A DNA stretch of 33,808 bases from Bacteroidales bacterium (lineage in GTDB: Bacteria; Bacteroidota; Bacteroidia; Bacteroidales; WCHB1-69), in the NCBI GenBank assembly GCA_012519525.1, contig JAAYQB010000018.1:1-33808 (forward strand), read 5' to 3'. Under the pieces are notes generated by a model. It searched no databases and was not told where the DNA came from. It saw only the letters and a program-made list of their open reading frames with translations. This document shows, one piece after another, positions 2,450-32,290 of this stretch (its first letter is position 1; each line of letters starts with the position of its first letter). The position numbers and the translations under genes are program-made.

Positions 2450-3313
2450 TTATTTTTTATTAGGTGTTTTCTTAAAATTAAATGAACGATTAGCCCATGG
2501 TGAATGGATGGGATTACTTCTCAACCAAAAACCTTTTTCTTCGGTTTCGTGGTTACCCTCATTTAAATGAAGGTGAAATGCCATCGTAAGTGCCAATATT
2601 TCAGGGTCTATTCCATCATGAGCTGCAATTTCGGGCTGTGTAACAACAGGTGATTGTATAGAGTTTTCTTCTTTTTCTGCTATTTCTTTTTTCGGTTTAC
2701 GTGTAAAAGCATAGATAATAACAACCACTACCAATATACCAACAATAACTAAAGTTGTTGTGTTGGATGTTGATGCCGTTAAATTTTCATCCGCTTCGAC
2801 TGTTTGAAGTTGATTTACTGCCAAAGGTGTTGGAATCAATGATTTAACCCAAACACTATCACAAAATCCAATACTTACGCCGGCTTGCTGTTCACTTATA
2901 GTATAAGTACAACTATCTATTAATGCAGAGTTTGTTTTATCATAAATTGCAAAAAAAGCATTCCCATTATTCAATATCGATATATCATTCAACATAAAAC
3001 TTAAACAATAAGCTGCTGACATTTCTACAGCTGCATCGGAATTATAAAGCAAGATGTAAGAATGAGCCGGAATAATAATCGAATCGGCAATAGTATATTT
3101 ATCTATATTATTGGGGTCATTGGTGAAAAAATAATTGTTTAAATAAATATCGCTTTCATTCGGATTATAGATTTCTATCCAACTTAATAAACGAGGCGAG
3201 GTTGTGTCTGTAGTATGAATTAAAATTTCGTTAATTTGAAGTTTGTTTTCTTGTGAAAATCCTATTTTAACACTAATTAGAAAAAATAACAATAAAAATA
3301 ATTTTCTCATCAC
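2450..3313 (-). CDS. lamin-tail-domain protein fused to an OadG-like (decarboxylase gamma subunit) membrane segment
   Basis: Signal peptide; LTD-like beta domain (INEILIH...SWIEIYNPNESDIYLNNYFFTND); one TM helix (TTLVIVGILVVVVIIYAF); C-terminal ALTMAFHLHLNEGNHETEEKGFWLRSNPIHSPWANRSF resembling Bacteroidota OadG tails. Confidence 0.75.
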   Translation of the reverse strand: MMRKLFLLLFFLISVKIGFSQENKLQINEILIHTTDTTSPRLLSWIEIYNPNESDIYLNNYFFTNDPNNIDKYTIADSIIIPAHSYILLYNSDAAVEMSAAYCLSFMLNDISILNNGNAFFAIYDKTNSALIDSCTYTISEQQAGVSIGFCDSVWVKSLIPTPLAVNQLQTVEADENLTASTSNTTTLVIVGILVVVVIIYAFTRKPKKEIAEKEENSIQSPVVTQPEIAAHDGIDPEILALTMAFHLHLNEGNHETEEKGFWLRSNPIHSPWANRSFNFKKTPNKK

Positions 3314-3372
3314 AAAATAGATTGTTAATAATTAAGCTTTTATATTTAAAAAAAATCGTTTTTTAAAAAAGG

Positions 3373-3380
3373 CAAATATA
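3373..3380 (-). promoter_or_regulatory. Bacteroidota -7 promoter element (TAnnTTTG) upstream of the OadG-like/BCCP/mce/mmdA cluster
   Basis: CAAATATA on + strand = TATATTTG on minus, about 60 nt upstream of the start at 3313. Confidence 0.5.
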
Positions 3381-3553
3381 CAACAAATATCGATATAAAC
3401 AAACACTTTTATCCGATAAAACAAAAACTATTTCACTTAATTTTATATTGATTGATAATCAATATGTATTTTGTTTATCTCAAAATATGCTATGCCGATT
3501 GTCATAGAAACAAAAAAAGTATATTTTTGCAAAAAAAATTATATGAAATAATA

Positions 3554-3578
3554 AAAACACAATAGTAGTCTGTGTTTT
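3554..3578 (-). terminator. hairpin terminator candidate after the rnf operon
   Basis: Perfect 8-bp inverted repeat AAAACACA-N9-TGTGTTTT just past the rnfA stop, T-rich on the minus strand downstream. Confidence 0.55.
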
Positions 3579-3605
3579 ATAATGTTTTTTTCACCTTATT
3601 AAATT

Positions 3606-4181
3606 TTACACTAATCCTGCAAATCCCATAAAAGCAAGCGATAAAATACCTGCCGTTATGAGTGCTATTGGCACTCCTTGCATTCCTTTAGGAATATCAA
3701 CAGTATCCATTTGCTCTCTAATTCCGGCAAAAATAACAATTGCCAAAGTAAAACCTACAGCTATTGAAATTGTATAAATAACACTATCAAAAATACTTGT
3801 AGGAAACTTTTGGGTAACAAGAATAGCAACTCCCAAAACAGCACAGTTAGTGGTAATTAATGGCAAAAATATCCCCAATGCTTGATACAAAGGTGGGCTG
3901 ATTTTCTTTAAAATAATTTCTACCATTTGTACCAAAGCGGCAATTACCAATATAAATACAATTGTTTGCAAAAACAATATATTAAAAGGAATAAGTAGAT
4001 ATATATTGATAATGGAAGTTACCATTGTAGCCAATGTCATTACAAAAACAACTGCTGCACCCATACCTACAGCTGTGCTGATTTTATTAGAAACGCCTAA
4101 AAACGGACATATCCCTAAAAATTGTGCTAAAATTATATTGTTTACTAAAACAGCACCTATTATCATTAAAATATAATACAT
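3606..4181 (-). CDS. rnfA: electron transport complex subunit RnfA
   Basis: 191-aa polytopic membrane protein, NNIILAQFLGICPFLGVS and TTNCAVLGVA; last gene in C-D-G-E-A order. Confidence 0.93.
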   Translation of the reverse strand: MYYILMIIGAVLVNNIILAQFLGICPFLGVSNKISTAVGMGAAVVFVMTLATMVTSIINIYLLIPFNILFLQTIVFILVIAALVQMVEIILKKISPPLYQALGIFLPLITTNCAVLGVAILVTQKFPTSIFDSVIYTISIAVGFTLAIVIFAGIREQMDTVDIPKGMQGVPIALITAGILSLAFMGFAGLV

Positions 4182-4199
4182 AGTCTATTTTTTTAATTG

Positions 4200-4787
4200 T
4201 TATTTATTTCGATTTTGCAACCATCTTACGGCAGCTATTGTAAAGCCAAAAACTATAAAAGCTCCGGGTGCCAATACAAAAATAAGTATGCCGTCAAAGG
4301 GAATAATTGTTTGTCCGAATAAAGTTCCACTTCCTAATAGTTCTCTGAAAAAGGCAATTATTGTAATGGCTATTGTAAAACCTATTCCCATTCCAATACC
4401 GTCAAGCATCGAATCGAAAACAGTATTTTTACTTGCAAAAGCCTCTGCCCTACCCAATACTATACAGTTCACAACGATTAAAGGGATAAAAATACCTAAA
4501 CTCGCCGACAAGGCAGGGACAAAACCCTGTATCACCAAATCAACGATAGAAACAAATGTTGCTATTACTAATATATAAGATGGAATACGTACTTTATCCG
4601 GAATTACGTTTTTCAATAAAGATATCAAAGCATTAGACATCAACAATACAAAGGTGGTTGCCATTCCCATTCCTAAGGCATTAAAAATGGATGTTGTAAC
4701 CGCCAATGACGGACAGGTACCTAATACTAAAACTAATGTAGGATTTTCTTTAATAAATCCATTTGTTAAAATTTTAATTTTGTTCAT
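4200..4787 (-). CDS. rnfE: electron transport complex subunit RnfE
   Basis: 195-aa membrane protein, GFIKENPTLVLVLGTCPSLAVT, IVVNCIVLGRAEAFAS. Confidence 0.93.
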   Translation of the reverse strand: MNKIKILTNGFIKENPTLVLVLGTCPSLAVTTSIFNALGMGMATTFVLLMSNALISLLKNVIPDKVRIPSYILVIATFVSIVDLVIQGFVPALSASLGIFIPLIVVNCIVLGRAEAFASKNTVFDSMLDGIGMGIGFTIAITIIAFFRELLGSGTLFGQTIIPFDGILIFVLAPGAFIVFGFTIAAVRWLQNRNK

Positions 4788-5367
4788 TTTTATTTTCTTT
4801 TATTGTTAAAAATGAATTATATGCTCTTTGAATTGCATCACAAAAAGCTCTTGAAGAAATGGTTGCCGCTGTAATGGCATCTACCTCTCCTCCATCTTTT
4901 TTTACTTTTAAATTAAATTTTCCGGGATTTTTTCCTTTAAATTGTAAAGGAAAATCCGATTTAGCTTTATCTATTTTATCGCCTAAGCCCGGTGTTTCAT
5001 TAGCTTGTATCACTTCCGTTTCTACAATATTGCCTTTGGCATCAAAACCTACCATAATACTAAAAGTACCACTATAAGCCTTATCGGTATAAGTTTCAAC
5101 TGCTGCACCGTAGAATTTTCCATTTTGATAAGCTACATATACAGTTACGGAATCTTTGTCTCCTTCTAATAAAACTTTTTGTGTTTTAATGTCTCCTTTA
5201 AAATCGGGTAACACTTTTGTGATTGCATTGTTTTTATTACTTTGTTGCGATTGTTCAATGGGTTTTTTAGTTACCATATAAACTACGCTCAAAGCTACTG
5301 CCGCTACACATGTAATAAGTGTCAGCGATATAATCAATTTTAGTAATGACGATTCTTTCTTTCCCAT
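4774..5367 (-). CDS. rnfG: electron transport complex subunit RnfG (FMN-binding)
   Basis: N-terminal TM plus FMN-binding domain with NETPGLGDKI and DAITAATISSRAF covalent-flavin-type motif; overlaps rnfE by 14 nt. Confidence 0.93.
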   Translation of the reverse strand: MGKKESSLLKLIISLTLITCVAAVALSVVYMVTKKPIEQSQQSNKNNAITKVLPDFKGDIKTQKVLLEGDKDSVTVYVAYQNGKFYGAAVETYTDKAYSGTFSIMVGFDAKGNIVETEVIQANETPGLGDKIDKAKSDFPLQFKGKNPGKFNLKVKKDGGEVDAITAATISSRAFCDAIQRAYNSFLTIKENKNEQN

Positions 5368-5392
5368 AACAACTACATTATTATTAAAGTTT

Positions 5393-6403
5393 TTAAATAC
5401 TTTTTATTTTATGTGTCCCAAATCTTTTTGGTTTAAATCCTTTATTAATAAGAGGTACAAGTGCGTTCATTATTAATATGGCAAAAGAAACCCCTTCGGG
5501 ATAAGACCCTGCCACACGAATAATAATCGTCAACACTCCACAGCCTATACCAAAAATAATTTTTCCCCAATTACTCATGGGCGATGTTACCATATCGGTA
5601 GCCATAAAAATAGCTCCCAATAACAAACCTCCCGACAGAATATGATAACTTGGCGGAATATATATGTTAGCATTTACAAGATGCAAGATAGCTGCAAAAA
5701 CAAAAGCACTTCCGATAAAAGCTACCGGTATATGCCAAGATATTACTTTACGTATCAACATAAAAAGCCCTCCCGCTATGATAGCCAATGCAGCTACTTC
5801 TCCTAACGAACCTCCTCTTTCGCCTAAAAGCATTTGTGCATAAGTAGGCAGTGTGTCCATGAGTTGAAACACATCTTGTCCTTGAGCTATTCCTGTTTTA
5901 ATCACACCCAATGGTGTAGCTCCCGTTGTAGCATCTGTAACAACCGAAGGCTGAGTGAACCAATAATGAGGTTTGGGCCATGTGGTCATTTGTTGAGGAA
6001 AGGAAATCAATAGAAAAACACGTCCTACCAGTGCCGGATTAAAAGGATTATTGCCAAGTCCTCCAAAGGTCATTTTAGCAACACCAATAGCGACTATTGC
6101 TCCAACAATAACCATCCAAATAGGCAGACTACTCGGCAAGTTAAACGCTAACAACAATCCCGTTATAACCGCCGAACCATCTAAAATAGTTGTTTTCCCT
6201 TTTAATAAAAACTTTTGAATCAGCCACTCGACAAATACGCAACTAAGCACCGAAACCAACGTAAGCACAATAGCATCTATTCCGAAAAATAGGAATGAAA
6301 ATATCATAGTTGGAATGAGTGCAATAACTACCGTCCACATAATTTTCTTTACCGACTCGTCGGTATGAATATGCGGTGAACCTGAAAACTGTAATAATGC
6401 CAT
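5393..6403 (-). CDS. rnfD: electron transport complex subunit RnfD
   Basis: 336-aa NqrB/RnfD family protein; SGSPHIHTDESVKKIMW start, GGLGNNPFNPALVGR, DATTGATPLG flavinylation motif, FMATDMVTSP. Confidence 0.95.
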   Translation of the reverse strand: MALLQFSGSPHIHTDESVKKIMWTVVIALIPTMIFSFLFFGIDAIVLTLVSVLSCVFVEWLIQKFLLKGKTTILDGSAVITGLLLAFNLPSSLPIWMVIVGAIVAIGVAKMTFGGLGNNPFNPALVGRVFLLISFPQQMTTWPKPHYWFTQPSVVTDATTGATPLGVIKTGIAQGQDVFQLMDTLPTYAQMLLGERGGSLGEVAALAIIAGGLFMLIRKVISWHIPVAFIGSAFVFAAILHLVNANIYIPPSYHILSGGLLLGAIFMATDMVTSPMSNWGKIIFGIGCGVLTIIIRVAGSYPEGVSFAILIMNALVPLINKGFKPKRFGTHKIKSI

Positions 6404-6430
6404 ATCTTTTATTTTCTTAAATTCTAAGTA

Positions 6431-7762
6431 TTATTTTGTATTACGTGCACGTATCATTGCTCCTGTTTTGTTTTTTCCTAAACGTATCCTGTCAAGCAAA
6501 GGACGAGCAGCAGGACAAGTATATTGACAGCTACCGCATTCAATACAATCCATCACGTGCATTTTTTCCATTTTTTCCCAATTGCTTTTTTCGGAAAGAG
6601 GTGCTAATAAGTAAGGCTCCAATCCCATAGGACACACATCAACACATTTAGCACAACGAATGCAATGATTGATTTCAGCACGTTTCCCTTCCTTATTATT
6701 AATAACCAAAATACATGAAAATCCTTTTGTAATATACGTATCCAAATTGGCAATTGCTTTCCCCATCATAGGACCTCCGCTTATCAGTTTTTCCGTATCT
6801 TCCGGAAGTCCGCCGTTTGCTTCAATAATTGATTGAATAGGTGTACCTAAACGCACTAAATAATTTTTTGGCTGTTTAACGGACTTTCCTGTATAGGTAA
6901 CATAATTGGAAATTAAAGGTTTATTTTTTTGTACCGCCTCGTAAACCGCCAAAGCCGTATTTACATTATTGACAATACAACCTACATCTATGGGTAATTT
7001 TCCCGAAGGCACTTCACGTTTCGTTATTGCTTTTATCAATTGTTTTTCGGCTCCTTGCGGATATTTTGTCCGTAAAGTATGTATTTTAATTCCTTTAAAC
7101 GACTTGGCAACTTCTTTTAAATGATTGATAACATCAGCTTTATTATGCTCTACCCCAATGTGAACTGTCGGTAATGAAAGTATATCTCTCAAGATACAAG
7201 CTCCTATTAACAACTCTTCTGTGCGTTCCATCATCACTCGGTGATCTATCGTGATATAAGGTTCACATTCAGCAGCATTGATAATCATATACTCCGCTTT
7301 TTTACCTTGAGGAATTAAAAACTTGACATGTGTCGGGAAACAAGCTCCGCCAAGTCCTACGATTCCTTTTTCTTTTATTTTTTCAACTATTTGCGAAGGC
7401 GAAAGCGTGATTTCTCTTTTAATATCTGCTGTCAAATCTATATCTTGCTCCCATTCATCTCCCTCTACATCAATAACAATAGCCGTTTTTTTAATGCCCG
7501 ACAAATCAGCAACTAAATCTACTTTATTAACAGTCCCCGAATAAGGCGAATGCAAGTTAGCAGAAATAAAAGCATCGCCTCTGGCGATTAGTTGCCCTAC
7601 TTTTACTTTATCTCCCTTCTCTACCACTACGGTAGAAGGCGCACCTAAATGTTGTGTGGCAAATAAAACCGCTTGCTGCGGTAAAGGGAACACTTCAATC
7701 GAAGATTGATGTGCAAACTTATTGTCGTCAGGATGAACACCACCTAATTTAAATGTTTTCAA
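6431..7762 (-). CDS. rnfC: electron transport complex subunit RnfC; TTG start
   Basis: 443 aa; FKLGGVHP, two 4Fe-4S motifs (CIRCAKCVDVCP, CIECGSCQYTCP). Start codon read as TTG at 7762-7760; the same frame has a TAA five codons upstream and no ATG between. Confidence 0.95.
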   Translation of the reverse strand: MKTFKLGGVHPDDNKFAHQSSIEVFPLPQQAVLFATQHLGAPSTVVVEKGDKVKVGQLIARGDAFISANLHSPYSGTVNKVDLVADLSGIKKTAIVIDVEGDEWEQDIDLTADIKREITLSPSQIVEKIKEKGIVGLGGACFPTHVKFLIPQGKKAEYMIINAAECEPYITIDHRVMMERTEELLIGACILRDILSLPTVHIGVEHNKADVINHLKEVAKSFKGIKIHTLRTKYPQGAEKQLIKAITKREVPSGKLPIDVGCIVNNVNTALAVYEAVQKNKPLISNYVTYTGKSVKQPKNYLVRLGTPIQSIIEANGGLPEDTEKLISGGPMMGKAIANLDTYITKGFSCILVINNKEGKRAEINHCIRCAKCVDVCPMGLEPYLLAPLSEKSNWEKMEKMHVMDCIECGSCQYTCPAARPLLDRIRLGKNKTGAMIRARNTK

Positions 7763-15775: not shown

Positions 15776-16723
15776 CTACTCTTTAATAAACTGTTTACTT
15801 GTAATCAATTTATCATTAACCAACACATTAATAAAATAAGAACCTTTAGCGTATTTGGCTACATTTAATTGATAGCTATCACCACTAACAATAGCTCTTT
15901 CTATTTCTTTTCCCGTATAATCATATACGAAGATTGTGGCATTGATTGCTTGTTCAAAAGATAGCTTCAAATTATCTTTTGCCGGATTAGGCGAAACAAT
16001 TATTACTGTTTCCGGCATCATTAGCTCTCTTACATTTTGTTCATAACCAAAAGCTACATCATCTATATAGAGCGTACTTCCGTCTTGTCCTTTGCACTGC
16101 ATGAGCGTTTCTATACTTGTAAAGTCATAACCTGCACTCGCAGCAAAAACAACAACTATCGAATCGGGTGTTGACTGCTGACTGTAATCAATAGAAATAT
16201 TAAACTGTGTCCAAGCATTAACATCGCTGTATATCACCATTTTTCCACCTCCTATTTTAGTTCCTCCCTTTTTTAGAAAAACCTCTATGGCTGCCGAATC
16301 GCCTTTTACTAATTGGCATTTATACCAACCTGTAAATTGCAAAGGCTTATGCGTAAATGGCTTTCCCATAATACAATCCATACCTATAAAATCGATGTGT
16401 AAAGTTGCCGCTGCTCCCGGTAAAAATAATTTTTCACCAAAAGTCATTGTGTTTGATACTAACTTCAAAGCATAATTTCCATCAATAGCATCTTCGGTAC
16501 GAAAAGCAGTTAAAGGTGCATCGCCTTGATCACCACTCAGTTCGTGTAGCTGATTCAGCGTAGAGAGAAAATAATCGTCTTTAAAATCCCAATAATCGGT
16601 TTTTCCAGGATTAGGATTGGTGAAAAATTCCCAATTTTTTTCAAAACTTCCATCCGGAAAAGTTTGTGCACATAAAGTGAAACTTGCTGTTAGGGCTAAG
16701 CCTATTAAAATATTTTTATTCAT
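15776..16723 (-). CDS. secreted PCMD-like domain protein with T9SS type A sorting domain
   Basis: Signal peptide; FTGWYKCQLVKGDSAAIEVFL..., GSTLYIDDVAFGY; C-terminal VSPNPAKDNLKLSF...YDYTGKEI...KGSYFINV...KQFIKE. Confidence 0.75.
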   Translation of the reverse strand: MNKNILIGLALTASFTLCAQTFPDGSFEKNWEFFTNPNPGKTDYWDFKDDYFLSTLNQLHELSGDQGDAPLTAFRTEDAIDGNYALKLVSNTMTFGEKLFLPGAAATLHIDFIGMDCIMGKPFTHKPLQFTGWYKCQLVKGDSAAIEVFLKKGGTKIGGGKMVIYSDVNAWTQFNISIDYSQQSTPDSIVVVFAASAGYDFTSIETLMQCKGQDGSTLYIDDVAFGYEQNVRELMMPETVIIVSPNPAKDNLKLSFEQAINATIFVYDYTGKEIERAIVSGDSYQLNVAKYAKGSYFINVLVNDKLITSKQFIKE

Positions 16724-16744
16724 GACTTTTAAATTTATATTTTG

Positions 16745-19294
16745 TTAAGTATTTATTTTTCGTTTAGAGAAAAAAGGTTCTCCCTCTGTAAATTTATATA
16801 TTATCTGAAAAGTTGTCATCCGTGGCGGTTCCGGACACATTGGACGTAAAGAATATTCTTTGTTAAATAAATTATTCGCTATGACAGAAAATTTTAAATT
16901 CAATACCTCAACTCCTACACGCATAGCAAAAACCCATGTCCCTTTATTATGATTTTGACGGTAAGTCTCTAATCCGTCAAATGGGAAAGGATAGTTTGAA
17001 TTTCGAACATTGCGTGGTGCAATAGACGAGTAACGGTCTAATTCATAAAAGAATTTATCAACGTTTTTCATCAAACTATAGAATTGAGAAGAGAATCCTA
17101 TCGTGAACATATTATAAATTTTGAAGTCTAAATCCGCTTTTAAAATATGTTCTATTCTGTATTTCATAATAAAACCTGTGGTATCGCTTGAAGTATTCAT
17201 ATAGGTATAGGCTTTTGTGTCGGTTTCGGTAAATACAAAACCCGTATCCAATACTTTGGGATTGGTGTATGCATAATTAAACACCAAAATATATTTTATC
17301 CATTTCCCCATTTTCCCTTCTCCTCCGATATTCATATCTACGCCCGCAATACGAGCCGGACCAGTATTAAAAAACTTAAACCCATAGCGTTTCAACGGAT
17401 TCAATTCTTGTTCTCGTGTCAACCAAGGTCCTAAGAAAAACTCCACGTAATTATTATAACGTTGATAATAGCCTGCTATATCAATATATCCTTTGAAATT
17501 TAACATTTTAAACATTTGTTGAATACCTAATTCCACATTCCAACTTGTTTCGGATTTCAAGTCGGGATTAGGATAAAAACCGTAATTTCCTACTTTGGTT
17601 GTAAGGTATCGTTCACCTATACTAGGAAAACGATAACCCATTCCAAAAGAGGCACGAATAAATGTAAAAGTTTTCTCAATATTATAATTAATCCCGGCTC
17701 TAAAAACAGGCTTCCCTTCCACATAGTTTTGAGATGCCGTATCTTTTAGAAAATAACCAAATTGTTCAAATATTTGATAGTATTCATAACGACCTCCTCC
17801 TAATACTATTAGATTTTGTTTTTTCAAAAAACGTTTTTCCAACTGTACATAAATAGCAGCATTAGCCGAATAATTTGGTTTTAAGACCTCGTTTGTATCC
17901 TTTTTTATACCTGCAAAAACATTCCCCTTCGATTGAGCAAATTGCCCAACTAAACCGGTATATAACTGCAAATTTCCTAATTTTTTAAAATTTTTAGCAA
18001 ATTGATAATCCAAATAATACATTTTTGATTTGCTATCCTGATTATTAGTAGCCCAATTATCGCTGTACATCATACGAGATTTAAGAGAATGGGAAGCACC
18101 GTTTTTTGCAAAATATTTAAAATAAGGATCTACAAAAAACATAAAATCAATAACTTCAGTTAATGAATTAGGATATGTTCTATACATGCCGCTATCTGCA
18201 TCTAACCAAAAATGTGTCATTGCATGCTGCGAATAGAGCAAATTGCCATTAATTCCCGCAAAAACTCCTTCTTTTTTAAAACGATAACGTGTCCCAAAAT
18301 TAAATCGCAAACGTTCTTCTTTTACAATTTTTTTGTACAAGTCAGAGTTTTTAAGAGTTTTACTTACCGGCAATTCTCGCCCTACAAAACCGTCATCATG
18401 AGCATATTCGGCACTTAATACCAAATCAAATTTATTGATTTTTCGAGCATGAGAAATATTAGCTCCATACGTTAAAGGGATTTTTCCATTAGGCCAACTA
18501 CAACGATAATCTGCTTGAGGACGACTATAAAAACCATTGTACACTATAGCTTTCGTTTGCGGCTTACCTTTTGGATAAGCTGTGCGTACATTGATAGCAC
18601 CCGTGATAGCAGATGAACCATACAAGACAGAAGCAGCTCCCTTAAGCACTTCTATTTGTTCTATGTTTTCCATTGGAATAAGATTCCATGCCGGACGACC
18701 TGCATCAACACGCAATACAGGCATTTCGTCCATCATAATCATCACACGACTTCCCATTCCTGAACTGAAACCACTCCCGCCTCGCATTTGGGGTTCATTA
18801 TCCACTACTATTAATCCTCCCACTTGGTCGAAAGCATTATTTAAAGTAGTAATATTGTTATCTTCTATTTTACGCTGTGGCACATAGGCTACAGAAGACG
18901 TCGATTCATCTTTTTTAATATCATAACGTTTTTCAACAACAGCAACTTCTTCTAACAGAGTATTATCCGGTTTTAAATACACATCAAGCGTTATCACTTT
19001 AGAATCTTTAAATGAAATTGTTTTCGTTTGTGTTTGATAACCGACAAAATGAAATTGCACATTGCATTCTACAGAATGTAACTCAAGATAATATTTTCCT
19101 TGATAATCAGAAGCCGTTCCTTTATTATTGTCGCAATCGGGTAGCACATGCGCCAAAGGCAATGTTAGATTTTTTTCTTCAGCATCGTATATTGTTCCCT
19201 TTAATATATACGTTTGTGCATAAGTAGAAAACGAGAGAAAAACTAAAAGAAAAAATTGAAACTTTCGCAATGTATTAGAAAAAAATGAAATCAT
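16745..19294 (-). CDS. TonB-dependent outer-membrane receptor with N-terminal carboxypeptidase-like domain
   Basis: 849 aa; KGTIYDAEEKNL... DVYLKPDNTLLEEVAVVEKRYD, plug MRGGSGFSSGMGSRVMIMMDEMPV, VLKGAASVLYGSSAITGAINVRT, C-terminal beta barrel FNKEYSLRPM. Confidence 0.93.
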   Translation of the reverse strand: MISFFSNTLRKFQFFLLVFLSFSTYAQTYILKGTIYDAEEKNLTLPLAHVLPDCDNNKGTASDYQGKYYLELHSVECNVQFHFVGYQTQTKTISFKDSKVITLDVYLKPDNTLLEEVAVVEKRYDIKKDESTSSVAYVPQRKIEDNNITTLNNAFDQVGGLIVVDNEPQMRGGSGFSSGMGSRVMIMMDEMPVLRVDAGRPAWNLIPMENIEQIEVLKGAASVLYGSSAITGAINVRTAYPKGKPQTKAIVYNGFYSRPQADYRCSWPNGKIPLTYGANISHARKINKFDLVLSAEYAHDDGFVGRELPVSKTLKNSDLYKKIVKEERLRFNFGTRYRFKKEGVFAGINGNLLYSQHAMTHFWLDADSGMYRTYPNSLTEVIDFMFFVDPYFKYFAKNGASHSLKSRMMYSDNWATNNQDSKSKMYYLDYQFAKNFKKLGNLQLYTGLVGQFAQSKGNVFAGIKKDTNEVLKPNYSANAAIYVQLEKRFLKKQNLIVLGGGRYEYYQIFEQFGYFLKDTASQNYVEGKPVFRAGINYNIEKTFTFIRASFGMGYRFPSIGERYLTTKVGNYGFYPNPDLKSETSWNVELGIQQMFKMLNFKGYIDIAGYYQRYNNYVEFFLGPWLTREQELNPLKRYGFKFFNTGPARIAGVDMNIGGEGKMGKWIKYILVFNYAYTNPKVLDTGFVFTETDTKAYTYMNTSSDTTGFIMKYRIEHILKADLDFKIYNMFTIGFSSQFYSLMKNVDKFFYELDRYSSIAPRNVRNSNYPFPFDGLETYRQNHNKGTWVFAMRVGVEVLNLKFSVIANNLFNKEYSLRPMCPEPPRMTTFQIIYKFTEGEPFFSKRKINT

Positions 19295-19375
19295 ATAATC
19301 GTCCTCTAAAAATTATTGATTAAACAAGTGATTTTATATTTTAAGTAATACCATAAAAAAATGGATTTTTATTTC

Positions 19376-22300
19376 TTAATATTTAATTATTTTCACCATT
19401 TGAGGTAGTTGATTTTGTAAAATCACTTTTAAGACATACACTCCTTTCGGCAAACTACTAATATCCAACGATGTATTAAACGAATTAACTACATTCGTCT
19501 TCAATAGTTTTCCGCATGCATCATAGAATTGAACACTTTCTATCATGGTATTATCAGTATTTGTTTTAACGTATATAATATTTTGAGTAGGATTAGGATA
19601 AACGATGAAATGCTCTGAGTAATCAATATCTTCAATTGCATTAGCATATACAAAATTAACACGATAAGTAGCACTTGTTATCCCGTCTTCTGCAACTATA
19701 TCAATTTGAGTTTGTCCCGGGATAGAAGTTGCATCCGTAATTTCATACATTGCATTGCTATCTTGAGGCTGAACTGTAACTAATGGAATTCCCTTATAAT
19801 CAAAAGGCAACTCATATTTATAGTTTTTTATCTCCGAATCAAATGTAGTAATTGCTTTCCCATCAACTTTTATCCACGATAAAAGAGCATTATTATTGGC
19901 AGCAGAAGAAAAAGTAAGAATGTATATTAAGGAATCTATTTCATTTACAGCCAACACTTTTATTTTAACCGTATCTGTAATTGCAATTGCTTGCGATATG
20001 CTTACATTTGCCCGACTATCTTCGGGCTCAGCGGTAATAATGGGTAATTCATTACTACCATAAGGTAAGACGTAATGATACGTTAAAGTTTCTTTATCAA
20101 AGCCTTCTATTAATGTATCATTAATATTTAATTTTGCTAAATAAGCATTATCCCCTGCTTCAATAGAAAAATGAATACGATAAACCATCGTAATACTTGT
20201 ATCGCCTGCCTTTACAAGAATAACAGCAGTTGATGGATATTGATTTATTTGTGTTATTTCTACCTTTGCATCGGGTTCAACAGCAATAGCTTCAACCAAT
20301 GGAATGTGAGTTGTCCCATATTCATATTCTATAAAATACTCAAGCGTATCAGGATGAAAATTCATAACAGTTACACTATCAACCATTAAGTCGGAAAGAT
20401 GAGCATCAACAGATAGTGCTACCGTAAATATTACCTTATATGTTTTAACATCGGTATTATCCCATGCTTTCACTATTAAACTAATTTCTCCATTCGGACT
20501 TGCTGCTGCTACGGTATCCACTTCACAGCGATTATCTATTAATGTATAATTTAAGGTCGGAATAGCTGTCGTAGTTATCGGTAATGTAACATAATAAACT
20601 GTATCAGCTGAGTCGAATGTCGGAATACTATAGGTGTTTCCTTCTATGTTGTAAGATAGAGATTGCAACATCGTATTAGCGCCTTGTACAAATTGCACTG
20701 TATATGTCCGTACGTGTATGCCATCTTCTGCAATTACTCTTATTTGTGCTTGACCAAAATACGTCCCCGATTGTGTTAGCTGAACAGAAGATAAACTCCA
20801 TGATGCAACAGCATTAACAATAGGTAATTGATTCGTATTCCATGGTAAAATAACGGTGTATTGCAAACTGTCTTTATGGAAAGAAGACAAAGGATTTCCG
20901 TTAACATACAATGTGTCTAAACAAGTATTATCAGAAACTAAACGATTGAAAATAACCGTATAAACATTACTGTCAAGCATATTTTCCGCTTTTACTTTAA
21001 TAATAGCCGTATCATTCACATGAAGAGGTGTTCTTACAATTTGAGCTATAGCTCTTACATCTGTTAATGTATAAGTAATTGTGCTAGGAATTTGCATTGT
21101 TTCCGGTTTTAAATACACCATATAATTATATTTATTGCATGCAAACTCTCTCACAACAGAGTCAACACTACCCAATTTATAACCAATTGATTGCAAACTT
21201 GCAACAGGTGATAATTGACGTGTAAAACGGATGACATATCGAAGCGTATGAATACTATCTTCAGCCAACACAGTAATGACAGCTGAATCATTGACCGTCA
21301 TAGCTTGTTTAATTGTAACATGGGCAGCTGCCGACTGCGCGTTTGCACCAACAATAGGAGGAATTAAACTATCATAATGCAAGGTAATGTAATAATTATT
21401 TGTATCTGCATGAAAATTAGATAAATTTACATTATTAATTGTTATTGAAGCTAAAGCTGCATTGGTTGATATTTCTACGCTAAAATAAACATAATAAGTT
21501 TTAACAATAGAATCGCTTGCTGAAGTAACTACTATTTTTCCCGTATCGTTAGGCGATTTCGGTTGCGTTACGGTTATTTTCGAATTAGTATCTGCTTTTT
21601 GCCAAGTCAATACAGGCGTATACGTTGTCAATGAAGGTAGGGAAACATAATAAGACATTGTATCTTTATGAAATCCACTTATTAAATAAGGTGTATTGTT
21701 TAATTTATACCCTATTTCCAAAAGATCTGCATTATTTGACAAATTCAATGTTAAATAAATTCGATAACTTTTAGTGTAAGTTGTATCTTCGGCTTTAACA
21801 GTAATAACAATCACTCCGGGAATACTTTGAGGATAGCTGATAGCTATAGAAGCAGCCGTATCAACGGATTTTGCGGTAACTACTGGTGCAACCGCCGTAT
21901 CCAATCCTACATAATAATTTAAAGTTGACGCATTAAAACCGGCTAACAGCGTATCATTGAGTTTTAACCAACTTAAATTAGCATTGGTATCAAGTGCTAC
22001 TTTAAAAATAATCCGATAGTTTTTGGTAGTAATTCCATCTTCAGCTATAACATTAACAAAAGCCGTATCATTAGGTTCTATTGCTTGCATATAAACAATG
22101 TGAGCATTCGTATCTTGCAACAATGCCATTACCGTCGGAACACTGAGAGTTTTAGGCGGAAATACTATTGTATAGCTATAAACAGTATCTACAAAAGTAG
22201 TTATTGGGTAAGTAGTGCTATTAATCTTATAAGATAAAGCAGATAGGAAAGCATTCGTGTTTTTTGCTACTGTAAAATAAATAGAATAAGTTTTCACAAA

Positions 22301-24076
22301 ATTAGTATCTTCTGCTATCACTTTTACTTGACCGTAACCGGGCAAAACCGCAGGTTGGGTTATCTGTACTTGAGCTGTAGCCCAAGCTGCTGTAGCCGAA
22401 AGTGTAGCACTAATTGTCCCATAGGCTAATTCAACATTGTAATGCAAAGTGTCGGCATGAAAATTAGCCAAAGAAATTCCATTATATTTTATGCTACTTG
22501 CTGACGCATTGGTCGATAATGCTACTGTAAAATAAACAGTGTAAGTTCTTGTAGTAATACCATCTTCGGCAGTAACAAGCACAGTAGCAGTACCGGGAAG
22601 CGAAGAGGCTTGCGTAACTGAAGGAATTAAACCTTCCCATTGTGCTTTAGCCGTAACAAAAGGTGCTATAAGTGTCCCTGTATTTAAAACTACATGATAA
22701 TTTAACGTATCTTGATGAAAATTAGGAATATTTATTCCATCATACTTCAAGCTATCTAATTTTGCATTATCAGATAATCCTACCGTAAAATTAATAGTAT
22801 ACACAGTCGTATCCCCATTTTCAGCTTTCAACCTTATAAAAGCTTTTCCATTAAGAGAAGTTGGTTGCACTATACTAAGAATTCTTGCACCGGTATCTGA
22901 AATTGTAGTATAATTAATAAAAGGTATAGAATCCGTTCCCGGCGGCAAAGTAATGTTATAGGTTTTAGTTGTATCTACAAAATTAGGAATCAATATAGTG
23001 TCTAACCTATTCAAAGTATAACCAATGTTTGAAAGTAAATTATTGGGAGACTTAAAAATAAAATAATTAATAGTATATATTTTTTGTGTAATATTGTCTT
23101 CTGCCAAAATAGTTATTACAGAACGGGCACTATCTATTCCATTATTTATTCCTCTATAGAGAATAATTGTATCGCTTACATCACTCACTTCGGTAGTATA
23201 AGTTATAGTAGGAAAATTATTAGGATTAGTTCCTCTTGGAAACACTATATTATAATTGAATGTCCCCTTAGAAAAACCGCTAATAGTAGTTCCATTCATT
23301 TTAATATCTGTTAGCCAAGCACTATAAATCAATTCTAAATCATCAATAGAAAGAGAATCTCCGGCTGAACCGCCTCCGGGAATTGAGTTAGTTGAAAAAG
23401 TAATTAAAATATAATTGCGTGTAGAGCTTCCATTGTACACAAAAGGCACTTTTTTTTGTACCCATACACAGCCGCCTGCTGTTGTCCCTGTTCGCTCAAA
23501 ATTGGTTTCAGCTTTTGCCGCATACGCGCTAGTCGTACTTGCATCATTAGGATCTTTAAAATCCGTATTACCATGAATAATAGCATTAATTCTTGCATTG
23601 CTTGTAGAGCTTGAAGCCCAATACTTTACCCATACATACAAAGAATCGGGAGATGCAGTAAAGGGTTGACTAAAAGCTGTATCGGAACGCTTTGTATAAT
23701 TATAATTACTTGTACTACTTGCTGATGTACTTCCAATGTAAATTTGTCCCAAAGTCATATTGCCGTTAGCAACAACACCCACGACAGAAGTAGAATAAAT
23801 GGTTAAATAATAACTTCCGGTGCCATTCGTACGATGACCTGCGACTTTGTAATGATGTGGTTGTTTTGCAGAAGAACAAGCTATACCTCCTATTAATCCT
23901 CCTATTGCACAATTTGCTGTGGCAAAAGAATTCCAGTTAACCGGTTCGGCATTGTTGGCTGTTCCATCCCAAGCCTCAAAATTGGCATTTGGAATTTGAT
24001 ACGGTTGAGAGTGTACTTTTACATTAATAGCTCCAGCTATTATTACTGCAAGTATGCAGCTAAATACTTTTTTCAT
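19376..24076 (-). CDS. giant T9SS surface protein: PCMD-like N-terminus, 14 cadherin-like beta-sandwich repeats, T9SS type A sorting domain
   Basis: Signal peptide; N-terminal PNANFEAWDG...VNW...SLSIDDLELIYS; 14 repeats of 84-92 aa; C-terminal HFIVYPNPTQNIIYVKT...YDACGKLLKT...LPKGVYVLKV...MVKIIKY. Confidence 0.88.
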   Translation of the reverse strand: MKKVFSCILAVIIAGAINVKVHSQPYQIPNANFEAWDGTANNAEPVNWNSFATANCAIGGLIGGIACSSAKQPHHYKVAGHRTNGTGSYYLTIYSTSVVGVVANGNMTLGQIYIGSTSASSTSNYNYTKRSDTAFSQPFTASPDSLYVWVKYWASSSTSNARINAIIHGNTDFKDPNDASTTSAYAAKAETNFERTGTTAGGCVWVQKKVPFVYNGSSTRNYILITFSTNSIPGGGSAGDSLSIDDLELIYSAWLTDIKMNGTTISGFSKGTFNYNIVFPRGTNPNNFPTITYTTEVSDVSDTIILYRGINNGIDSARSVITILAEDNITQKIYTINYFIFKSPNNLLSNIGYTLNRLDTILIPNFVDTTKTYNITLPPGTDSIPFINYTTISDTGARILSIVQPTSLNGKAFIRLKAENGDTTVYTINFTVGLSDNAKLDSLKYDGINIPNFHQDTLNYHVVLNTGTLIAPFVTAKAQWEGLIPSVTQASSLPGTATVLVTAEDGITTRTYTVYFTVALSTNASASSIKYNGISLANFHADTLHYNVELAYGTISATLSATAAWATAQVQITQPAVLPGYGQVKVIAEDTNFVKTYSIYFTVAKNTNAFLSALSYKINSTTYPITTFVDTVYSYTIVFPPKTLSVPTVMALLQDTNAHIVYMQAIEPNDTAFVNVIAEDGITTKNYRIIFKVALDTNANLSWLKLNDTLLAGFNASTLNYYVGLDTAVAPVVTAKSVDTAASIAISYPQSIPGVIVITVKAEDTTYTKSYRIYLTLNLSNNADLLEIGYKLNNTPYLISGFHKDTMSYYVSLPSLTTYTPVLTWQKADTNSKITVTQPKSPNDTGKIVVTSASDSIVKTYYVYFSVEISTNAALASITINNVNLSNFHADTNNYYITLHYDSLIPPIVGANAQSAAAHVTIKQAMTVNDSAVITVLAEDSIHTLRYVIRFTRQLSPVASLQSIGYKLGSVDSVVREFACNKYNYMVYLKPETMQIPSTITYTLTDVRAIAQIVRTPLHVNDTAIIKVKAENMLDSNVYTVIFNRLVSDNTCLDTLYVNGNPLSSFHKDSLQYTVILPWNTNQLPIVNAVASWSLSSVQLTQSGTYFGQAQIRVIAEDGIHVRTYTVQFVQGANTMLQSLSYNIEGNTYSIPTFDSADTVYYVTLPITTTAIPTLNYTLIDNRCEVDTVAAASPNGEISLIVKAWDNTDVKTYKVIFTVALSVDAHLSDLMVDSVTVMNFHPDTLEYFIEYEYGTTHIPLVEAIAVEPDAKVEITQINQYPSTAVILVKAGDTSITMVYRIHFSIEAGDNAYLAKLNINDTLIEGFDKETLTYHYVLPYGSNELPIITAEPEDSRANVSISQAIAITDTVKIKVLAVNEIDSLIYILTFSSAANNNALLSWIKVDGKAITTFDSEIKNYKYELPFDYKGIPLVTVQPQDSNAMYEITDATSIPGQTQIDIVAEDGITSATYRVNFVYANAIEDIDYSEHFIVYPNPTQNIIYVKTNTDNTMIESVQFYDACGKLLKTNVVNSFNTSLDISSLPKGVYVLKVILQNQLPQMVKIIKY
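19634..23320 (-). repeat. 14 tandem cadherin-like beta-sandwich modules within the giant surface protein
   Basis: Hand-parsed module pattern NA.L..L..ng..l..F..dt..Y.v.L.......P.v.a.......v.i.qa.....a.v.V.AEDg.t..tY.i.F.v.ls, aa 253-1481. Confidence 0.85.
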
Positions 24077-24115
24077 TTTTTGAATATTTAATTTTTAAAA
24101 CAGATTTAGTAATTG

Positions 24116-24123
24116 CAAATGTA
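24116..24123 (-). promoter_or_regulatory. -7 promoter element for the giant protein / TonB / PCMD-like operon
   Basis: CAAATGTA on + = TACATTTG on minus, 40 nt upstream of start 24076; I found no comparable element in the 80-bp and 21-bp downstream intergenic gaps. Confidence 0.55.
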
Positions 24124-30019: not shown

Positions 30020-32290
30020 ATGAAGCCTACATCGCTATATTTGCCTTTTTTAGCAATATTTTTCATTAATATTACTATTGCTTTTGCTCAAACAGCCACT
30101 ATTAGAGGTTTTATTTACGATAAAAGCAATGGAGAACCTATCCCCTACTGTTCTGTTCTCCTTGTCAATGAAAAAACAGGAGTTGTATCTGACGACAACG
30201 GCTATTTCTCTTTAACAAAATTAAAAGCAGGTGAATATAAAATAAGAATTACTTTTATGGGCTACGATTCTCTTGTGCGAATCTACAATTTAAAAAACGG
30301 ACAAACTATTACCGAAAAATTATACCTTGAGCCAATATCAATTCAAATCGGAGAAGTACAAATAATTGCTCAAAAAGAAGCACAAAAAACAGAGACTCGC
30401 GTAGCTGTAGAGCGTGTAAGTCCTAAACAAATCTCTCAACTACCCTCTATAGGAGGCATTCCCGACATAGCTCAATATTTACAAATACTACCCGGTGTCG
30501 TTTTTACCGGAGACCAAGGAGGACAGCTATATATTAGAGGAGGCACTCCTATACAAAACAAAGTACTACTCGATGGCTTAGTCGTCTATAATCCCTTTCA
30601 TTCTATTGGATTATTCTCCGTTTTCGATACTGATATTATAAAAAATGTTGATGTATATAGTGCGGGATTTGGCGCCGAGTACGGAAATAGAATATCATCA
30701 ATTATGGATATAAAAACAAGAGACGGTAATAAAAAAAGATTATCAGGCAAATTCGACATCAATACTTTTGGAGCTAAAATGGTATTGGAAGGACCATTAA
30801 TGAAAGAAAAAAACAAAAATAGTTTAACATTCCTAATGTCTGTAAAAGGCTCTTACTTAGAACAAACCTCAAAACTATTATACCGATATGCCGACACTAA
30901 CGGATTACCATATAACTACTTAGACGGCTATGGAAAAATATCGCTACAAACAAATAACGGAAGTCGAATTAATTTCTTTGGATTTAGTTTTAACGATGGA
31001 GTAAACTATCCGAATATTGCCTCTTATAAATGGAATTCGTGGGGAATAGGTTCTAGCTTTTTAATTATCCCTTCTGTTGCCAATATGCTAATGGATGGCA
31101 CATTAGCATATTCCGACTATAAAATCGGATTATCGGAAGCAACTAATCCTTTACGTACAAGCCACATTAACGGTTACTCTTTCTCTATGAATTTCACCTA
31201 TTTATTTGGACAAAACTCTCTTAAATACGGAGTCGAATTTTTAGGCTCTTGGTTAGATTATGCATTTACCAACCCTTACGGTACCGATTGTGGACAAGAA
31301 AGCTTTAATAGTGAATTTGCTATCTTTGTAAAATACAAATGGATTATAAAGAAAATCATCTTTGAACCCAGTTTACGTTTACACTATTACGCATCTCAAA
31401 GTGCCCTCTCGCCTGAACCTCGCATAGCAATGAAATACAATGTAAGCAAAAATGTACGTTTGAAATTAGCAGCAGGGCTTTATACACAAAACATTATGAG
31501 TGCAACTTCCGACCAAGACGTGGTTAATTTATTTTACGGATTCTTAACTGTTCCCGAATATTTACCCGAAAAAATCAACGGAGTTCCCGTTAGAAATAGT
31601 CTGCAAAAAGGACAACATATCGTCGTAGGAGGAGAATTTGATGTGTTAAAATATTTTGCTATCAATACTGAAGTTTATTTTAAAAACTTCTCTCACCTTA
31701 CCAATATTAATCGCTATCAAATGTTTGCAAGTGATAATGAATTTATTTTAGAGACAGGAAAAGCCTACGGTGCCGACATTTCTATAAAGTACAATTATAA
31801 AAAACTATACGTCAATTTTGTGTATGCTCTCAATTGGGTTAATAGAGATGACGGAACTATTGTTTACCGAACTCACTTCGACAGACGACATAACATCAAT
31901 ATCACAACATCTTATGCCTTTGGCAAAAATGATGTTTGGCAAATTGATGCTCGCTGGAACTTTGGAACAGGTTTCCCCTTTACAAAAACAAAAGGTTTTT
32001 ATCCTAAAAATGAAGCTTTTTCAGATATCAGTCAAGATATAAACTCTTTCAACGAAAGCCTTGGAATTATTTACGACACCATCAACAGAGGACAGCTTCC
32101 TGATTATCACCGTTTAGATATTAATTTTAAACGTAAATTCATTCTCAATCCCCGTTCTACTATAGAATTAAACGCCGGAGTTACCAATGTCTATAACTAT
32201 TACAACATATTCTATGTAAATAGAAAAACCAATGAAAAAATCTACCAACTTCCTATACTATGGAGTTTTAGTTGCAACATTAATTTCTAA
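30020..32290 (+). CDS. TonB-dependent receptor with carboxypeptidase regulatory-like N-terminal domain
   Basis: 756 aa; IRGFIYDKSNGEPIPYCSVLL...GYFSLTKLKAGEYKIRITFMGYDS, plug QLYIRGGTPIQNKVLLDGLVVYNPFH, barrel. Confidence 0.92.
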   Translation: MKPTSLYLPFLAIFFINITIAFAQTATIRGFIYDKSNGEPIPYCSVLLVNEKTGVVSDDNGYFSLTKLKAGEYKIRITFMGYDSLVRIYNLKNGQTITEKLYLEPISIQIGEVQIIAQKEAQKTETRVAVERVSPKQISQLPSIGGIPDIAQYLQILPGVVFTGDQGGQLYIRGGTPIQNKVLLDGLVVYNPFHSIGLFSVFDTDIIKNVDVYSAGFGAEYGNRISSIMDIKTRDGNKKRLSGKFDINTFGAKMVLEGPLMKEKNKNSLTFLMSVKGSYLEQTSKLLYRYADTNGLPYNYLDGYGKISLQTNNGSRINFFGFSFNDGVNYPNIASYKWNSWGIGSSFLIIPSVANMLMDGTLAYSDYKIGLSEATNPLRTSHINGYSFSMNFTYLFGQNSLKYGVEFLGSWLDYAFTNPYGTDCGQESFNSEFAIFVKYKWIIKKIIFEPSLRLHYYASQSALSPEPRIAMKYNVSKNVRLKLAAGLYTQNIMSATSDQDVVNLFYGFLTVPEYLPEKINGVPVRNSLQKGQHIVVGGEFDVLKYFAINTEVYFKNFSHLTNINRYQMFASDNEFILETGKAYGADISIKYNYKKLYVNFVYALNWVNRDDGTIVYRTHFDRRHNINITTSYAFGKNDVWQIDARWNFGTGFPFTKTKGFYPKNEAFSDISQDINSFNESLGIIYDTINRGQLPDYHRLDINFKRKFILNPRSTIELNAGVTNVYNYYNIFYVNRKTNEKIYQLPILWSFSCNINF

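Follow-up and report, generated by a model that had tools for sequence, protein, structure and literature searches.

A TonB-dependent receptor with a conserved PCMD partner: a putative surface capture and uptake cassette using T9SS-exported proteins in a Bacteroidales bacterium

The 33,808-nucleotide stretch of Bacteroidales DNA considered here (the window; GenBank contig JAAYQB010000018.1) contains a TonB-dependent receptor gene flanked by the genes of two PCMD proteins with T9SS tails. This arrangement raises the question of whether the three products belong to one system and, if so, which function this system could fulfill. A first reading, made from the sequence alone, had proposed an operon for surface capture and uptake, in which a giant repeat protein was the centerpiece, the receptor an orphan and the small PCMD protein a secondary component. 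The features on which the following analysis relies are:

19376–24076, minus strand: giant surface protein of 1566 aa, with a signal peptide (identified by eye), a PCMD head, 14 repeats and a T9SS tail
23327–24007, minus strand: PCMD head of the giant, about residues 24–250 (PF13201, 34.4 bits, cut-off 28, match at 23327–23953)
19649–23326, minus strand: 14 cadherin-like/Ig-like repeats of about 82–92 aa in the giant, residues 251–1476, delineated with a home-made profile
19376–19603, minus strand: T9SS type A sorting tail of the giant (PF18962, TIGR04183)
16745–19294, minus strand: TonB-dependent receptor of 849 aa, with a CarbopepD_reg_2 N-terminal domain (PF13715), a plug (PF07715) and a barrel (PF00593)
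16724–16744, minus strand: receptor/partner junction of 21 bp, without promoter-like element
15776–16723, minus strand: partner, a PCMD protein of 315 aa with a T9SS tail (PF13201, 38.3 bits; PF18962, 42.3 bits)
15785–15994, minus strand: sorting tail (T9SS type A) of the partner; genera g11, g13 and g16 have a lipoprotein signal in its place
24116–24123, minus strand: promoter motif TACATTTG, of the Bacteroidota −7 type (TAnnTTTG), 39 nt ahead of the giant start

Profile searches support most of these assignments. The plug (69.0 bits) and the barrel (93.1 bits) of the receptor both exceeded their cut-offs, confirming that this protein is a TonB-dependent receptor. In the partner, PF13201 scored above its cut-off of 28, and PF13201, PF18962 and TIGR04183 were above cut-off in both PCMD proteins, as expected from the initial proposal of two T9SS-tailed products with PCMD domains. 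The Cadherin-like domain also predicted for the giant remained just under threshold (PF12733, 21.7 bits for a cut-off of 24.2); its 14 repeats were resolved by a profile built from the window's own repeats.

The source draft genome (1.96 Mb, about 98% complete) encodes seven receptor plugs, 48 T9SS tails and the T9SS sortase PorU (NF033707, 1196.5 bits for a cut-off of 420). A genome search with PF13201 located PCMD domains in the partner and in the head of the giant, and in no other protein. Within the window, a further TonB-plug protein (756 aa, 30020–32290), without a curated NCBIfam match, has a class-III aminotransferase gene on one side and a ThiF-family gene on the other, while positions 3606–7762 contain apparent genes for the Rnf subunits C, D, G, E and A, of which the domain scan confirmed RnfC only; rnfB is missing from its usual place and its best match is found on a separate contig (G000:C123). 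On contig G000:C140, a TonB receptor of 857 aa is followed by a possible lipoprotein of 161 aa and by a NamZ exo-muramidase (L093, 4804–9175), which suggests the import of cell-wall fragments by this receptor.

The three genes of interest are co-oriented on the minus strand (15776–24076), the giant being the first and the partner the last. They are separated by 81 bp (giant/receptor, one more than first reported) and, as first reported, by 21 bp (receptor/partner). The motif located ahead of the giant requires caution, as TAnnTTTG occurs 63 times in the AT-rich window for 58.4 expected occurrences, i.e. not above chance; because it is so common, a single copy is no proof of a promoter. Its significance derives instead from its position, which is kept across relatives. 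In the relatives' loci, TAnnTTTG precedes all seven giants with a readable start (about one in shuffles) and 23 of the 28 receptors which are the first gene (4.0 in shuffles), while it is found ahead of none of the 13 receptors having a giant upstream. Ahead of partner genes, its frequency is about that of chance (1/13 and 2/33). TAnnTTTG is the only recurrent promoter motif and marks the first gene of the cassette, whichever gene that is; scans for sigma-70 promoters and terminators in this region returned nothing above chance. Collectively, these data match what is expected from a cassette forming a single predicted transcript, the motif shifting with the first gene. The promoter-like element of the sequence-only reading is thus real, even if its lone copy in the window would not have established it, and the lack of promoters in the gaps likewise holds. 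This distribution argues against independent transcripts and, together with the pairing described below, for the proposed co-oriented three-gene operon.

Conservation of the cassette was investigated in a survey of 104 genomes from the family, using a threshold of 40% identity or more for receptor orthologs. Receptor orthologs were identified in 48 of these genomes and partner orthologs in 47, and in each of these 47, receptor and partner are neighbors in the same orientation, the PCMD gene following immediately after the receptor gene. In the 48th genome, a contig end cuts the receptor, leaving the pair unresolved. Two other loci call for comment: in L150, a broken receptor frame inflates the measured distance between receptor and partner, and in L081, the script picked a second partner copy, the first one being adjacent to the receptor. 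The flanks are on the contrary not conserved, with 24 sequence clusters in 36 loci upstream and 25 in 43 loci downstream, although short or spurious ORFs may have divided some of these clusters; the cassette is thus kept together while its location changes. With flanks varying between genomes, genomic neighbors gave no clue to the ligand.

The receptor can therefore not be regarded as an orphan, nor the small PCMD protein as an accessory, since the latter is its regular partner in every family genome where both are resolved. The conserved pairing, as a genomic signal, also ties both proteins to a likely common function rather than to unrelated ones. Of the original triplet, it is this pair which is conserved, the giant being restricted to one sub-clade. 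PCMD paralogs are also found alone in related genomes, and in genus g3 (L081 and L088) the surface partner is duplicated, the partner gene encoding PCMD domains in tandem and further copies lying next to the receptor.

Across the class, the receptor profile gave strong matches in 242 of 395 sampled genomes. A receptor gene and a PCMD gene located 19–194 bp apart on the same strand were found in at least 32 class genomes beyond the window's own, with the PCMD gene downstream in nine of these 32 and upstream in 23. In a tree of 54 receptors, those with an upstream PCMD gene form one branch (100/100), those with a downstream PCMD gene, including the window's, form another (100/100), and the remaining ones constitute a third branch (99/94), without PCMD neighbor and often adjoining an apparent dprA. 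The upstream loci were picked for having a PCMD neighbor, a choice which does not explain their grouping on the tree, and L168 was counted among loci without PCMD neighbor solely through a broken receptor frame. As six outgroup receptors from the family and the order also lack a PCMD neighbor, like the sampled dprA-linked receptors of the class, this receptor fold can work without PCMD. The PCMD-less sister clade (L169–L184, e.g. L177, L181 and L182) is spread over the class with a recurrent neighborhood of apparent dprA and kdsB genes. Read by eye from the sequence, these dprA/kdsB or gcpE-like neighbors provided no indication of a ligand.

The way the partner is anchored proved the most informative about its function. 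In 12 loci from genera g11, g13 and g16, the partner is devoid of T9SS tail. Most of these proteins possess a lipoprotein signal whose cysteine is followed by acidic residues (e.g. GCKDPEEP, SCTDPEEP) and then by a proline-rich stretch, a pattern which is less clear in L080; the receptor gene and the listed start of L147 overlap. The tail-less state corresponds to two changes on the receptor tree. Because the genomes concerned still show T9SS-tail matches, loss of the T9SS is not the cause of this state, and the occurrence of the partner as a tail-less lipoprotein in three genera indicates that its anchor has been exchanged. Two unrelated surface routes for one gene pair are the best evidence for a partner acting outside the cell, at the receptor, and support this location as far as sorting signals can predict it. 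T9SS type A proteins may also be released or attached to LPS rather than sit on a receptor. Tails and lipoprotein signals would nevertheless place the PCMD proteins at the cell surface.

This exchange of anchors bears on another possible role of the receptor, which would be to aid the secretion or assembly of T9SS proteins instead of importing a nutrient. The precedent is Oar, a TonB-dependent protein which, according to PMC6434023, aids the secretion of PopC in Myxococcus. However, the T9SS tail of the partner is a standard one, and the genome contains 48 tails of this type together with its own PorU. Moreover, the receptor is kept in the three genera whose partner, as a lipoprotein, does not require the T9SS. 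We consider a secretory role very unlikely.

The AlphaFold2 model of the partner (pLDDT 83.2) points to a CBM-like jelly-roll fold: its first matches were the PCMD structures 3hbz, 4het and 3s30, with modest TM-scores of 0.4–0.6, followed by CBM4, CBM16 and CBM61. The receptor and partner genes, which share a reading frame and are separated by 21 bp, were also fused for prediction (pLDDT 67.9, pTM 0.61). In this model, no interface was readable and the receptor half matched the fold of Cir, ChuA, PirA and BtuB.

The partner fold is compatible with PCMD proteins being surface enzymes or polymer binders which liberate glycan or retain it near the cell, the receptor importing the product without contacting them, so that the link between them would be functional only. 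The solved PCMD proteins were indeed deposited as putative glycoside hydrolases, and the fold neighbors include carbohydrate-binding modules as well as beta-sandwich domains of hydrolases. Nevertheless, no catalytic family was detected in the partner or in the giant, no glycan-degradation genes were present among the scanned window proteins, the flanks vary between genomes and, unlike in glycan-utilization loci, no SusD was found in the genome. An indirect link of this kind appears improbable to us, and a partner serving the receptor directly is preferred. Fold and family weakly suggest a glycan, or a glycan-bound micronutrient, as candidate ligand.

TonB transporters with a lipoprotein lid have been established in Bacteroides for vitamin B12 (PMC10404256) and, with XusAB, for siderophores (PDB 9GBC; PMC13142918). 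The cassette was compared with these and other known systems. Like SusCD/RagAB, it associates a receptor and a surface partner within one Bacteroidota operon, but no PF07980 (SusD) match exists in the genome, the receptor has an ordinary size of 849 aa, and the SusC/RagA signature (TIGR04057) scored 26.4 bits in it, under the cut-off of 46.2. The distinction from SusC/D loci which had been drawn from the sequence is thus upheld. XusA, from B. thetaiotaomicron, is the best PDB sequence match to the receptor, with a similarity spanning the N-terminal domain and the plug only. Both systems share a TonB transporter with a carboxypeptidase-like N-terminal domain and a neighboring, dedicated surface partner. 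However, XusB is a beta-propeller lipoprotein, whereas the partner is predicted to be a PCMD/CBM-like jelly-roll and has a T9SS tail, and no XusC (PepSY) gene is present in the operon. Regarding HmuRY, none of 23 partner proteins matched the HmuY family up to E=1; the FRAP/NPNL region of the receptor, inspected with respect to heme, has no histidine between the motifs, which is not decisive. Finally, BT_2081 (3hbz), BT_3745 (4het) and BVU_0247 (3s30) share the Pfam family and the fold of the partner but are structural-genomics entries without assigned function. The literature searched contained no description of these proteins as partners of TonB receptors, and nothing on PCMD/PF13201 together with TonB receptors.

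The comparison with BtuBG raises the possibility that the cassette imports vitamin B12, through a BtuB-type receptor with a T9SS-exported binding partner. Both systems combine a TonB receptor of ordinary size with a surface partner, and the extra binders BtuH are comparable to the giant. In addition, the receptor plug resembles BtuB (E=2e-20) and the B12-binding DUF4465 proteins are beta-jelly-rolls. On the other hand, partner fold and anchor differ from those of BtuBG, and with 80.5 bits the receptor is far under the cut-off of the BtuB model (TIGR01779, 599.7). No DUF4465 match was obtained in the partner family, and no DUF4465 structure was recognized in the top 50 fold hits. No cobalamin riboswitch was found in the window, which had no Rfam hit, or in 29 relative loci searched, while the same test was positive ahead of another BtuB-like receptor of the genome. 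As this genome has a receptor controlled by a cobalamin riboswitch elsewhere, B12 is an extremely improbable ligand for the cassette, and it was rejected. The other locus (L094, G000:C167:10000–24617; 2895–6462, minus strand) encodes a BtuB-like receptor of 681 aa behind the riboswitch (6263–6462, 106.7 bits), and then two T9SS-tailed proteins, the first of them with DUF4430, and an apparent lipoprotein. The ligand of that receptor is probably B12, and its adjoining DUF4430 protein hints at a second case of a T9SS-exported partner.

By the tests made, the cassette belongs to none of the SusCD, BtuBG, XusAB and HmuRY systems and, by analogy, would functionally resemble the lipoprotein-lidded transporters BtuBG and XusAB. 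The exchange of anchors supports the partner being a likely surface analog of BtuG, XusB and SusD, albeit exported by the T9SS and CBM-like in its predicted fold.

The giant has a different evolutionary history. Besides the window's genus, genera g3, g8 and g10 have it, whereas the entire sister clade lacks it and retains the receptor–partner pair alone; being confined to one sub-clade, it is an addition and not the core of the system, contrary to the central place that it was first given. Its architecture is constant. Every complete ortholog contains 14 repeats, as in the window, across genera at about 45% identity, and the best match of a repeat was at the same position in 1132 of 1251 between-genome comparisons (1 in 14 by chance). 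The repeat array is thus old, with its order and length fixed. Between genera, identity is about 50–53% for the PCMD head and 45–47% for the repeats. In four genomes of the window's genus (L083, L084, L085 and L086), short relatives in which two repeats separate a PCMD head from a T9SS tail stand by the receptor, beside or in place of the giant.

Long T9SS proteins with Ig-like domains are commonly adhesive, and the giant could be an adhesin or a surface-layer component which shares the transcript without any role in uptake, in line with its absence from a sister clade that keeps the pair. This would be compatible with the preferred explanation for receptor and partner. Yet, its head belongs to the domain family of the partner, these two being the only PCMDs found in the genome, and it shares the operon promoter. 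Moreover, its repeats are fixed at 14 with positional orthology, unlike in adhesins with a drifting repeat number, and in another family a PCMD protein with a similar, giant-like N-terminus is encoded upstream of a receptor (L179). An adhesive giant is a serious possibility, which we hold to be somewhat less probable than a role in uptake.

Taken together, the explanation that we favor, with reasonable though not high confidence, is that of a TonB importer and one or two T9SS-exported surface proteins serving it. From one transcript would be produced an outer-membrane TonB-dependent importer and these one or two proteins, the PCMD proteins being exported by the T9SS and held at the cell surface. 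The small PCMD protein would contact the receptor, bind its substrate and pass it on, in the way that SusD, BtuG and XusB serve their own receptors. The giant, which presents a related PCMD head on a fixed rod of 14 domains, would probably provide a second, outlying capture site or hold the complex. We infer this capture-plus-uptake function with the support of the exchange between T9SS tail and lipoprotein anchor in three genera.

SusD, BtuG and XusB are lipoproteins, and only lipoprotein partners are described in the literature found. At somewhat less than even chances, many TonB receptors of the class may use T9SS-exported partners rather than surface lipoproteins, with evolutionarily interchangeable anchor routes, and PCMD proteins may largely be receptor partners and not hydrolases. 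The fixed rod of 14 repeats raises the further question of why its exact length is kept at about 45% sequence identity. If the proposed function is true, it would provide a direct connection between the T9SS, the special secretion system of this phylum, and nutrient uptake, as well as a testable function for PCMD domains, which have been solved structurally but have no assigned role.
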